64,000 nucleotides of DNA from Amycolatopsis sp. WQ 127309 (GTDB taxonomy: Bacteria > Actinomycetota > Actinomycetes > Mycobacteriales > Pseudonocardiaceae). Under the pieces are notes generated by a model. That model had not been told where the DNA came from and made no database searches. It saw only the letters and a program-made list of their open reading frames with translations. The stretch covers positions 5,779,001 through 5,843,000 of the forward strand of contig NZ_CP095481.1 of assembly GCF_023023025.1 (NCBI RefSeq), given 5' to 3'. Position 1 is the first letter of the stretch. Every line of letters begins with the position of its first letter. Shown piece after piece: positions 36,859 to 41,471 of the stretch. The translations under genes were made by a program, and so were the position numbers.

Positions 36859-37772
36859 CAGAAGTAGCCTTCCCGCTTGCGATCTTCCATGCCCGCCTCG
36901 GAAATCCGGTCGTCCGCGCGGGTCGCGCCACGCTCGGTGATGCGCGTCGCGGCGACCTCGGTGACCACTTCGGACGGTGTCGCCGCCGGCGATTCGACGC
37001 AGCCGGTGCACGTCGCGTCGCCGACGGTCCGGAACCGCACCGTTGCCTCGTACGGCACCTCACCGTCCACAAGAGACAGGAACCGGGTTGCGGCGAGCAG
37101 CATGCCGTCGCGTTGGACGACCTCGCGGCGGTGCGCGTAGTACAACGGCGGCAACGAGATCCGCTCGTCGCGGATGTACTGCCAGATGTCCAGCTCGGTC
37201 CAGTTCGACAGCGGGAAGACGCGGATGTGCTCGCCGCGCCGGTGCCGCCCGTTGTAGAGGTTCCACAGCTCGGGCCGCTGCGCCCGCGGGTCCCACTGGC
37301 CGTGCTCGTCGCGGAAGCTGAACACGCGCTCCTTGGCCCGCGCTTTCTCCTCGTCCCGGCGGGCGCCGCCGAACACGGCGTCGAAGCCGCCTTCGCGGAT
37401 CGCACGCAGCAGCGTGGCCGTCTGCAGGCGGTTGCGGCTGGCCCGCGGGCCGGTCTCCTCGACGACGCGCCCGGCGTCGAGGTCGTCCTGCACGCTCGCG
37501 ACGTGCAGCCGCAGGCCGAGGGAGGCGACGGTCTCGTCGCGGAACCGCAGCACCTCGTCGAAGTTGTGGCCGGTGTCGACGTGCAGCACCGGGAACGGCA
37601 GCGGTGCCGGCCAGAACGCCTTCGCGGCGGCGTGCAGCATCACCACCGAGTCCTTGCCGCCGGAGAAGAGCAGGACGGGGTGCTCGAAGGTCGCCGCGAC
37701 TTCGCGGAAGACGTGCACGGCCTCCGCTTCGAGCGCGGCCAGGTGCGACAGCTCGTACGAGGTCACGGACAC
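36858..37772 (-). CDS. cysD: Sulfate adenylyltransferase subunit 2
   Basis: Adenylyl-transferring subunit of ATP sulfurylase (sulfate + ATP to APS). 304 residues from GTG 37772. PP-loop SGGKDSVVMLH at 37-47; HVDTGHNFDEVLRFRD and the C-terminal REGYF also fit CysD. I prefer this GTG because a good promoter (TTGACC, 18 bp, TACTTT) places the transcription start on it; an in-frame ATG at 37790 would lie inside the promoter. First gene of cysD-cysNC. Confidence 0.94.
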   Translation of the reverse strand: MSVTSYELSHLAALEAEAVHVFREVAATFEHPVLLFSGGKDSVVMLHAAAKAFWPAPLPFPVLHVDTGHNFDEVLRFRDETVASLGLRLHVASVQDDLDAGRVVEETGPRASRNRLQTATLLRAIREGGFDAVFGGARRDEEKARAKERVFSFRDEHGQWDPRAQRPELWNLYNGRHRRGEHIRVFPLSNWTELDIWQYIRDERISLPPLYYAHRREVVQRDGMLLAATRFLSLVDGEVPYEATVRFRTVGDATCTGCVESPAATPSEVVTEVAATRITERGATRADDRISEAGMEDRKREGYF

Positions 37773-37778
37773 TCGAAA

Positions 37779-37808
37779 AAAGTAGAACATGTTCTTGTCA
37801 TCGGTCAA
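37779..37808 (-). promoter_or_regulatory. cysD promoter overlapped by a KstR-like operator
   Basis: Minus strand: -35 TTGACC (37808-37803), 18-bp spacer, -10 TACTTT (37784-37779), start expected at GTG 37772. Within the spacer and -10 lies AGAACATGTTCT (37784-37795), a perfect 12-bp palindrome. The 14-mer 37783-37796 fits TnnAACnnGTTnnA, the KstR consensus I remember from mycobacteria, at all positions but the last. The same box sits about 35 bp upstream of the plus-strand operon, so one regulator could control both directions. Confidence 0.6.
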
Positions 37809-37829
37809 GCGGTGCGGGACCCTGTGACG

Positions 37830-39496: not shown

Positions 39497-40281
39497 GCGT
39501 GTCGGAGTTGTTGCGGGACAAAGTGGTCGTCGTCTCGGGTATCGGCCCGGGGCTCGGCCGGTCGATCGCCGTGCGCAGCGCCATGGCGGGCGCGGACGTC
39601 GTGCTCGCCGCGCGCACCGAGTCGCGGCTCACCGAAGTCGCGAAGGAGGTCACCGACCTCGGACGCCGGGCCGTCGCGGTCCGGACCGACATCGACGACG
39701 CGGACTCCGCGGCCAACCTGGTGAGCGAGGCCGTCGAGGCGTTCGGGCGGGTGGACGCGGTGGTGCACAACGCCTTCGCCGTCCCGCCGCTGACCGATCT
39801 GGCCACTGTGGACTTCGACGCCGTCCGCGCGGGCTTCGAGACCGCGGCGATCTCCGTGCTGCGGCTGACCCGGCTGTTCCTGCCCGCGCTCAAGGAGAGC
39901 AAGGGCTCGCTGGTGATGATCAACTCGGCGGTGCTGCGACATTCGCGGCGGACGTTCGGCGCGTACAAGATGGCGAAGTCGTCGCTGCTGTCGCTGTCGC
40001 AGAGCCTCGCGAGCGAGCTCGGGCCGGACGGCATCCGCGTCAACACGGTCGCGCCCGGGTACATCTGGGCGCCGAACCTCAAGTGGTACTTCACCTACCT
40101 GGCCAAGGAACGCGGGATCACGTCGGAGGAGGTCTACGCCGAGACGGCGTCGACGATCGACCTGCGCAAGCTGCCGGAACCGGACGAGATCGCCGACGCG
40201 GTGGTGTTCCTCGCCTCGCCGATGGCGCGCGCGATCACCGGGCAGTGCCTCGACGTCAACGGCGGCGAGTACCACCACTAG
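39493..40281 (+). CDS. Short-chain dehydrogenase/reductase
   Basis: 262 residues from GTG 39493 (another in-frame GTG at 39499). Cofactor motif SGIGPGLG (about 15-22), catalytic Ser145, Tyr158 and Lys162 (YKMAK), NGG-type C-terminus. Arg-rich DVVLAARTESR after the second strand suggests NADP preference. In an operon with a sulfotransferase, a hydroxysteroid-like oxidation/reduction is plausible but unproven. Confidence 0.9.
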   Translation: MSVSELLRDKVVVVSGIGPGLGRSIAVRSAMAGADVVLAARTESRLTEVAKEVTDLGRRAVAVRTDIDDADSAANLVSEAVEAFGRVDAVVHNAFAVPPLTDLATVDFDAVRAGFETAAISVLRLTRLFLPALKESKGSLVMINSAVLRHSRRTFGAYKMAKSSLLSLSQSLASELGPDGIRVNTVAPGYIWAPNLKWYFTYLAKERGITSEEVYAETASTIDLRKLPEPDEIADAVVFLASPMARAITGQCLDVNGGEYHH

Positions 40282-40289
40282 GAGGATCC

Positions 40290-41471
40290 ATGCTCCCCGG
40301 CCGGGCCGACCTGGGCACGTTCGACGATCTGCACGCCTCGGCGTCGAAGCTCACCGGGCTCGACGACTTCGGCGGCGACGAGTACGTCGAGGGCCTTCGT
40401 GTGCTGCTGGAGTCGTTCGCGGCCGACGAGGACCTGACGCCGTTCGGGAACAAGGTGCACCGCGCGATGCTGCGCGGCGCTTTGGTGGCTCGGTTGCTCA
40501 GCGAGACGGGCTGGAAGCAGCACCCGGCGTCGGCTTCCGTGGCGATCGAGCGGCCGATCTTCGTCACCGGCCTGCCCCGCACCGGCACGACGGCGCTGCA
40601 CCGGCTGCTCGTCGAGGACCCCGCGCACCAGGGCCTCGAGGTGTGGCTCGCCGAGATCCCGCAGCCGCGGCCGCCGCGCGAGACGTGGGCGGAAAACCCG
40701 GTGTTCCAAGGGATCCAGGCCGGCTACGAGCGCCACCACGTCGAGCACCCGGAGTTCATGGGGGTGCACCACATGTCCGCGGACCAGGTGGAGGAGTGCT
40801 GGCAGCTGCTGCGGCAGTCGATGCGGTCGGTGTCGTTCGAGTGCCTCGCGCACCTGCCGCGTTACTCGCGCTGGCTGGCGAAGCAGGACTGGACGGACGC
40901 CTACGCCCGGCACCGCCGCAACCTGCAGCTGATCGGGCTGCCGGACGCGGGCAAACGGTGGGTGCTCAAGAACCCGAGCCACCTGTTCGCGCTGGACGCG
41001 CTGATGGCGGCGTACCCGGACGCGCTGGTGATCCAGACCCACCGCGCGCCGCGCACCATCATGGGCTCGATGTGCAGCCTGGCGGAGAAGGCCGCGGACG
41101 GCTGGTCGACGAAGTTCCGCGGCGAGGTGATCGGGCGTTCGCAGCTGGATCTGTGGGCCCGCGGCGCCGACGAGTTCCACGCGGCCCGTTCCCGTTATGA
41201 CGCGGCGCAGTTCTACGACGTGGCGTACGAAGATTTCGTGGCGGACCCGATCGGGACGGTGTCCACTGTGTACGACCACTTCGGACTGTCGCTGACTCCT
41301 TCGGCGCGTTCCGCGATGACGTCGGTGCACGAGGCGAGCCGCACGGGCTCGGCGAAGCCAGTGCACAAGTACAGCCTGGCGGACTTCGGCCTGACGGCGG
41401 AGGAAGTCGACGAGCGTTTCGCCGACTACCGCGCGGTGCAAGGGTCACGACCAGCCGCGGCAGAGGGCTAA
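40290..41471 (+). CDS. PAPS-dependent sulfotransferase family protein
   Basis: 393 residues. PAPS 5'-phosphosulfate loop GLPRTGTTALHRLL at 94-107; 3'-phosphate-binding segments KNPSHLFALDAL and THRAPRTIMGSMCSL. Soluble. GGAGG precedes the ATG, 8 bases after the SDR stop. Likely transfers sulfate to a hydroxylated lipid or steroid; the acceptor is not visible from sequence. PAPS would come from the divergent cysD-cysNC. Convergent with the EAL-GGDEF gene, stops overlapping. Confidence 0.88.
   Translation: MLPGRADLGTFDDLHASASKLTGLDDFGGDEYVEGLRVLLESFAADEDLTPFGNKVHRAMLRGALVARLLSETGWKQHPASASVAIERPIFVTGLPRTGTTALHRLLVEDPAHQGLEVWLAEIPQPRPPRETWAENPVFQGIQAGYERHHVEHPEFMGVHHMSADQVEECWQLLRQSMRSVSFECLAHLPRYSRWLAKQDWTDAYARHRRNLQLIGLPDAGKRWVLKNPSHLFALDALMAAYPDALVIQTHRAPRTIMGSMCSLAEKAADGWSTKFRGEVIGRSQLDLWARGADEFHAARSRYDAAQFYDVAYEDFVADPIGTVSTVYDHFGLSLTPSARSAMTSVHEASRTGSAKPVHKYSLADFGLTAEEVDERFADYRAVQGSRPAAAEG

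Follow-up and report, generated by a model that had tools for sequence, protein, structure and literature searches.

We analysed a 64,000-nucleotide stretch of Amycolatopsis sp. WQ 127309 (the window, positions 5779001-5843000 of the 11,133,454-base single-contig genome) and found that its only strong predicted site for the steroid-catabolism repressor KstR lies in the gap between two divergent operons. Leftward runs cysD-cysNC, for synthesis of 3'-phosphoadenosine 5'-phosphosulfate (PAPS), and rightward a module for an NTF2-like protein, a DUF1214-like protein, a short-chain dehydrogenase (SDR) and a PAPS-type sulfotransferase (Stf). We propose, at a probability of about three in four, that KstR represses both operons and that steroids switch on a closed unit of PAPS synthesis and sulfotransfer acting on a steroid-type substrate. 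We regard the observation and the wiring as sound, and a KstR-controlled, PAPS-dependent sulfation unit as the best reading of the predicted box and its surroundings. The genes, the box, the regulator, the conservation and the copy numbers described below were all computed from genome data.

The KstR box of the window

The site was scored with a 14-column weight matrix built from 47 published KstR sites (PMC1995591, Table 3), which themselves score 13.0 to 27.4 bits. The box TAGAACATGTTCTT reaches 22.5 bits, within the range of the training sites, against 8.3 for the next-best position of the window, which bears out the initial annotation in treating the palindrome as a KstR-type site. The perfect 12-bp palindrome described there is likewise present, as AGAACATGTTCT at 37784-37795. 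The agreement given as 13 of 14 consensus positions was an overstatement, since the box has seven of the eight specified bases of TnnAACnnGTTnnA and one mismatch, the final A being replaced by T. The loose pattern TnnAACnnGTTnnA was rejected as evidence by itself; it matches six times in the window against 3.06 expected, and 9 of 100 shuffles reach six. The weight matrix was therefore used. A second AGAACGAGTTCT, at 38313, was also rejected as a KstR site (7.1 bits). With the same matrix the palindrome GAGAACGAGTTCTC (38312-38325), near the start codon of the DUF1214-like gene, scores only 7.1 bits.

From the GTG of cysD at 37772 to the ATG of the NTF2 gene at 37830 the gap measures 57 bp, one less than the 58 bp first reported; the divergent arrangement of the operons around the palindrome stands as described. 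Pfam and NCBIfam profiles upheld the labels cysD, cysNC with an adenosine 5'-phosphosulfate (APS) kinase, NTF2, SDR and sulfotransferase, with CysD, CysN and APS kinase all above curated cut-offs; the reading frame of cysNC was verified, and its start is probably the ATG at 36858. The DUF1214-like protein of the window occupies the operon position of Rv3531c and falls short of the PF06742 gathering score (17.8 against 25); a relative of about 31% identity (in L101) reaches 34.3.

Promoter positions were predicted from an alignment of 32 representatives, less than 80% identical, drawn from 81 boxed loci whose gap is undivided; since they were selected for having the box, its columns are conserved partly by construction. 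The conserved pattern of the gap is AAAnTAGAACAnGTTCTTGnnnnnGGTCAA-n10-nAnGCT, which reads leftward as TTGACC-18-TAnTTT and rightward as TTGnnn-17-nAnnCT (Table 1). The rightward transcript would start at about 37830, on the NTF2 ATG, and would thus be leaderless. Both predicted promoters overlap the box, an arrangement in which a single repressor dimer could silence the two together. Boxes shared by the two operons end in TTCTTG and separate boxes mostly in TTCTA, presumably because the promoters overlap the shared box.

Table 1. Coordinates in the window of the KstR box, the predicted promoter elements and the genes of the two operons.
Feature	Position	Strand	Basis
KstR box TAGAACATGTTCTT	37783..37796		22.5 bits (47-site matrix); palindromic core AGAACATGTTCT
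Predicted -10 of cysD promoter, TACTTT	37779..37784	-	TAnTTT conserved in the 32 representatives; overlaps left box end
Predicted -35 of cysD promoter, TTGACC	37803..37808	-	18 nt from -10; + strand GGTCAA 91-97% per base (32 representatives)
Predicted -35 of module promoter, TTGTCA	37795..37800	+	TTG invariant (32 representatives); its TT is the right box end
Predicted -10 of module promoter, GACCCT	37818..37823	+	Probable; A2 0.94, T6 0.97 (32 representatives)
cysNC, 603 aa, ATP sulfurylase large subunit fused to APS kinase	35047..36858	-	TIGR02034 549.2 and TIGR00455 218.6 bits, both above cut-off
cysD, ATP sulfurylase small subunit	36858..37772	-	Start GTG 37772 or 37766; TIGR02039 453.9 bits, cut-off 396.6
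SnoaL_4/NTF2-like protein	37830..38309	+	PF13577; start ATG 37830; 4l8o 67.3 bits
DUF1214-like protein, operon position as Rv3531c	38306..39496	+	PF06742 sub-threshold; 6ans 113.5 bits; Foldseek 3.3e-32
SDR, operon position as Rv3530c	39493..40281	+	PF13561/PF00106; 3ucx 285.7 bits
Stf (Sulfotransfer_3), STF1 orthologue	40290..41471	+	PF13469 207.2 bits, cut-off 27; 2zq5 557 bits

KstR and its other boxes in the genome

A KstR homologue, for which the initial annotation had proposed a search, is encoded at C1:5424001-5424630. This TetR protein of 210 amino acids scores 336.8 bits with the NCBIfam KstR equivalog NF033703 (cut-off 280) and about 253 bits with the solved KstR chains 3mnl/5ua2, and its own promoter carries the box TGTAACACGTTCTA. 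Other sites above 20 bits adjoin the genes for 3-oxosteroid 1-dehydrogenase (kstD), hsaA and echA19, each protein being above its model cut-off, and further ones adjoin genes for an acyl-CoA ligase, acyl-CoA dehydrogenases, GMC oxidoreductases, a thioesterase-like protein and an LLM oxidoreductase. One of these GMC oxidoreductases is weakly cholesterol-oxidase-like (100 bits against a cut-off of 850).

Over the whole 11.1 Mb, TAGAACATGTTCTT is one of 13 places with at most one mismatch to TAGAACNNGTTCTA. The pattern AGAACNNGTTCT was counted 23 times and its reversed control 4 times; these raw counts overstate the enrichment, as many of the occurrences are intragenic and low-scoring. The two-mismatch pattern was not enriched genome-wide (177 against 289 in the control). 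The boxes examined were those at places found by two patterns, 51 of the 177 two-mismatch sites included, plus the kstR region, and they represent part of the regulon. These loci hold 37 sites of at least 11 bits; eight of the 11 sites above 20 bits are intergenic and the other three are no more than 60 bp from where a gene starts or ends, and 21 of the 26 below 20 bits fall inside genes.

Conservation of the neighbourhood and of the box

Three sets of loci were compared, which overlap in that some genomes are in more than one: a family set, with an orthologous Stf (E <= 1e-120) in 89 of 297 genomes and 60 regions from 59 genomes compared; a named set, made of the best 80 of 137 relatives; and an order set of 20 hand-picked regions, 105 of 397 genomes having matched. 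We found cysD beside the module in 42 of the 60 family loci, 72 of the 80 named loci and 9 of the 20 order loci, always on the strand opposite to Stf (all 42, 72 and 9). Between cysD and whichever of NTF2 and DUF1214 is nearer, the distance does not exceed 149 bp in the family loci or about 1.2 kb in the other two sets, L233 (4.9 kb) excepted. The neighbourhood is not strain-specific, a point that the initial annotation had put forward for checking, since it spans 11 of the 17 family genera sampled and extends to other families. Among the best 80 relatives, the closest Stf proteins are from Amycolatopsis, including A. eburnea, A. pretoriensis and A. rifamycinica; loci with cysD belong to Amycolatopsis, Nocardia, Prescottella, Rhodococcus, Gandjariella and others, and those without it are five from Actinomadura, one from Prauserella muralis and two from metagenome-assembled genomes. 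The order DUF1214-SDR-Stf recurs in genomes presumed to be mycobacterial (NTF2 was not found in the ten order loci of this kind, L223-L232); together with the orthology of Stf to M. tuberculosis STF1/Rv3529c, this supports the equation of the three genes with Rv3531c-Rv3529c made at the outset.

We then scanned the 200 bp upstream of cysD with the matrix. At a threshold of at least 14 bits, chosen after the window score was seen, a box precedes linked cysD in 42 of 42 family, 70 of 72 named and 9 of 9 order loci, and the mirrored matrix gave none. At the same threshold a box stands upstream of the module (NTF2 or DUF1214) in 54 of 60, 80 of 80 and 16 of 20 loci. None of 16 hand-picked cysD genes not linked to Stf, including the housekeeping cysD of this genome, has a box of at least 14 bits, five of these controls (L124-L128) being from genomes without a KstR match. 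In three of the four genomes checked that carry a same-type cysDNC at a distance from the module, the module is boxed and cysD has a perfect TAGAACACGTTCTA about 44 bp upstream. In genome G024 (L067) cysD and cysN are gone from the side of the module and a stand-alone APS kinase of 199 amino acids (L067:6426-7025) stays, with two boxes of 18.8 and 14.2 bits upstream; here the PAPS step is what is kept beside the module.

Most Nocardia, Rhodococcus and Prescottella loci, as well as those of the A. orientalis group, have a longer gap with its own box on each side. An IclR-type gene lies between the two boxes in the Nocardia locus L195 (5062-5961; HTH_IclR 32.1 bits, tested in this locus only). 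Loci of the A. orientalis group (e.g. L152, L157) likewise have, between NTF2 and DUF1214, a gene interpreted as IclR-type that separates the two boxes; none was seen in the window operon.

KstR is encoded in 159 of the 297 family genomes. It is present in 89 of 89 genomes with orthologous Stf, and Stf occurs in none of the 138 genomes without KstR; when distant Stf proteins (31-34% identical) are added, KstR accompanies 122 of 123, the exception being G069. These co-occurrence counts are uncorrected for kinship.

PAPS supply

The window cysNC carries the one APS kinase found in the genome (PF01583), and the one PF13469 protein and the one PF00685 match found, for the two sulfotransferase families searched, are the same gene, the window Stf. 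A second cysD (66% identical) belongs to a separate locus with a nitrite/sulfite-reductase-family protein, for which no model was above its cut-off, CysH and a 420-amino-acid CysN that gave no match to a separate APS kinase model. The CysH of this locus is above the APS-reductase model (236.3 against 235.3) and below the PAPS reductase model TIGR02057 (180.8 against 254.2). This second locus lacks an APS kinase, and therefore cysteine synthesis should not need the window cysNC. Within the genus, exactly one APS kinase was found in 20 of the 26 genomes with Stf, and none in four of the six members without it. The window is the sole PAPS supply among the detected genes of this genome, and this is not a rule across the family.

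Protein relatives and comparison with known systems

The Stf of the window is 62% identical to 2zq5, the sulfotransferase STF1 of M. tuberculosis H37Rv, and has the same fold. The 2zq5 chain is in turn 88.6% identical to the Stf of L225 (G340), a genome taken as Mycobacterium because of this identity, in which DUF1214-SDR-Stf has a 19.5-bit box ahead of it. The motif GLPRxGTT, which we take to be the PAPS-binding loop, is invariant in 22 Stf sequences. The nearest solved relative of the NTF2 protein is the bile acid 7alpha-dehydratase BaiE (67 bits, aligned over BaiE residues 6-138); it keeps the five residues Y, D, H, D and R, presumably the catalytic residues of BaiE, within the broad SnoaL_4 family. 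This likeness is known from sequence, and the window gene differs from BaiE in operon and organism. The SDR is nearest to 3ucx, followed by 7alpha-hydroxysteroid dehydrogenases and other members of a broad family, and the DUF1214-like protein resembles the uncharacterised Burkholderia protein 6ans. The predicted models were moderate, with a mean predicted local distance difference test score (pLDDT) of 72.9 for Stf and 78.8 for the DUF1214-like protein.

The closest known regulatory system is the mycobacterial KstR regulon at Rv3531c/MSMEG_5932, with the same repressor family and operator. There KstR binds the Rv3531c/Rv3532 gap in electrophoretic mobility shift assays, and MSMEG_5932 is derepressed 6-fold in a kstR mutant (PMC1995591). 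In the window, by contrast, the box also covers cysDNC, and the operon begins with an NTF2 gene. Published evidence of binding and derepression is confined to the mycobacterial orthologues, and by analogy the same would hold in the window. The trifunctional enzyme set CysD/CysNC is that of the M. tuberculosis complex (PMC3141025), the window set being an additional copy that is dedicated and has a KstR box; that review treats sulfur regulation by stress, SigH, cysteine and sulfate, with no occurrence of KstR or cholesterol. In comparison with STF1/Rv3529c, the window links the enzyme to PAPS supply; the STF1 literature, in the passages available, gives no metabolic substrate or inducer.

Elsewhere, PMC6429209 lists Rv3531c as a hypothetical protein, Rv3530c as a possible oxidoreductase and Rv3529c as a conserved hypothetical, and PMC3068626 calls many genes of the regulons functionally undefined. 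The words sulfotransferase and sulfate and the gene Rv1285 (cysD) do not occur in the main text of PMC1995591, nor sulfotransferase and cysD in PMC7807495, and in PMC7846781 KstR and CysD are named in separate tables. Looking for papers by PDB code brought up nothing relevant. Among open-licence papers we found none that links KstR with a sulfotransferase, PAPS genes or these locus tags; subscription papers may hold such a link.

A second type of module

A second-type module, whose Stf is about 31% identical, has the gene order DUF1214-Stf-SDR. It was studied in 20 regions, 19 obtained from distant Stf matches and one from an APS kinase match. DUF1214 is present in 19 of the 20 (L117, without it, was excluded from the 19), and a box of 24.6-27.4 bits lies upstream in 19 of 19, against 1 of 19 with the mirror control. 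A different cysD-cysNC (about 50% identical) adjoins this module in 14 of the 20 regions, where it either runs into the box or is convergent with the module. The second-type loci again place PAPS genes beside a boxed module, in a different gene arrangement, and their PAPS genes are not always under a KstR box.

Instead of a KstR box, several second-type cysD genes have another palindrome near their start, TTGAACGTTGTTCA or close to it (e.g. L105:10346, L110:3550), two exact forms of which occur in nine of the 20 loci. The locus L138 (G042) has a second-type cysDNC, DUF1214, SDR and a 19.0-bit box, with no Stf found there, and the same genome carries an NTF2-Stf pair without DUF1214 and SDR elsewhere (L080). 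L138 could be assigned to neither the linked nor the unlinked loci and was excluded from both counts.

Proposed mechanism and alternative interpretations

We suggest that one KstR dimer would sit at 37783-37796, the meeting point of the leftward cysD-cysNC -10 and the rightward NTF2-DUF1214-SDR-Stf -35, and would repress both promoters. A ligand from the steroid pathway would remove KstR and turn both operons on; the ligand that releases KstR is a cholesterol-derived CoA thioester. CysD and CysNC would then turn sulfate into PAPS, a steroid-type compound would be the substrate of the BaiE-like NTF2 protein and the SDR, and the STF1-type enzyme would move sulfate from PAPS onto a hydroxyl of that compound. 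The unit would be closed, given that no other APS kinase or PF13469/PF00685 sulfotransferase was found in the genome and that cysteine would be made from APS at another locus. KstR binding, repression and induction in this organism, the promoter positions, and a steroid or steroid-breakdown product as the substrate are what we infer from sequence. The statement of the initial annotation that PAPS supply is wired to the sulfotransferase module is supported to the extent of a shared predicted box and a conserved neighbourhood.

Several observations weigh against this reading. A strict sigma-70 consensus scan of the gap gave no promoter, so that the promoter calls depend wholly on conservation, and the -10 of the module is weak. 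The 14-bit threshold was set in hindsight; even there two named cysD genes miss it (L188, 12.9; L198, 11.1), and at 17 bits or more the box precedes linked cysD in 27 of 42, 59 of 72 and 9 of 9 loci. Ten modules have no box of at least 14 bits (L078, L080, L085, L090, L094 and L095 in the family set; L230, L231, L232 and L241 in the order set). No cysD adjoins the module in 18 of 60 family and 11 of 20 order loci. In G039 (L123) the module is boxed and the distant cysDNC has no box, the distant cysDNC of another type in G003 and G033 (L136 and L137, both among the 16 controls) have none either, and no KstR box lies upstream of cysD in any of the 14 second-type loci with these genes. Across the family at least one APS kinase was found in 88 of 89 genomes with Stf, with exactly one in only 45 of 89, and at least one also in 112 of 208 genomes without Stf. 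The CysH of the second locus clears the APS-reductase cut-off by 1 bit and also clears two models named phosphoadenylyl-sulfate reductase. Finally, the role reported for the M. tuberculosis orthologue, Rv3529c, there named Stf1, is in host signalling and not metabolic: according to PMC8882603, which cites another paper, it disturbs MyD88-IRAK1 signalling in host cells.

The same report speaks for the strongest alternative, which we regard as unlikely: that control by KstR is real and the sulfate goes not onto a steroid but onto a lipid, menaquinone, protein or cell-envelope molecule made while steroids serve as the carbon source. Another mycobacterial sulfotransferase makes sulfomenaquinone (PMC6469627), and KstR-regulon genes without an assigned role may serve the assimilation of products (PMC3068626). 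A host role cannot account for the module in soil genera, however, and the relatives of the NTF2 protein (nearest BaiE) and of the SDR (7alpha-hydroxysteroid dehydrogenases after 3ucx) speak for a steroid, with the caution that both families are broad. Doubtful to a greater degree is a transient sulfation, in which the sulfate would leave to drive dehydration or a ring change of the steroid, as with the retinol dehydratase, curacin and olefin synthase sulfotransferases, and no sulfated end product would accumulate. The operon does place Stf together with an SDR and an NTF2 protein that resembles a dehydratase, and Stf has structural matches to these three enzymes, but the matches are weak (template modelling score about 0.29-0.35 on the query) and common to many kinds of sulfotransferase, and NTF2 was not found in the ten presumed mycobacterial loci.

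That a TetR-family protein other than KstR reads the box seems improbable: a loose first KstR search returned 268 candidates in this genome, but the matrix comes from KstR sites only, the same boxes stand at kstR, kstD, hsaA and echA19, and Stf is accompanied by KstR in every one of the 89 genomes. Least credible of all is a box that serves just one operon across an accidentally shared gap, since, although some genera have the module without a nearby cysD, longer gaps hold two separate boxes in most Nocardia, Rhodococcus and Prescottella loci, and relocated cysDNC is boxed in three of four genomes.

Returning to the KstR-controlled sulfation unit, its wider form would be a dedicated sulfation branch of sterol metabolism, in which KstR controls both the making of PAPS and the BaiE-like/DUF1214/SDR/Stf module, and of which mycobacterial Rv3531c-Rv3529c would be a remnant drawing on general PAPS; to this we give even odds. 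If the proposal is true, a conserved and unassigned part of the cholesterol regulon, including the solved M. tuberculosis sulfotransferase, would gain a testable metabolic function. The proposal predicts on-demand synthesis of PAPS for steroids and, in Amycolatopsis, Nocardia and Rhodococcus, the existence of a sulfated sterol product.

Neighbouring genes

Immediately downstream of the Stf gene, and convergent with it, the window encodes a protein with an EAL and a partial GGDEF domain (41468-43129). Further along, at 44445-46250, lies a gene for a dGTP triphosphohydrolase-family protein (TIGR01353 206.7 bits, cut-off 152.35), the match starting at residue 108 of the longest frame.

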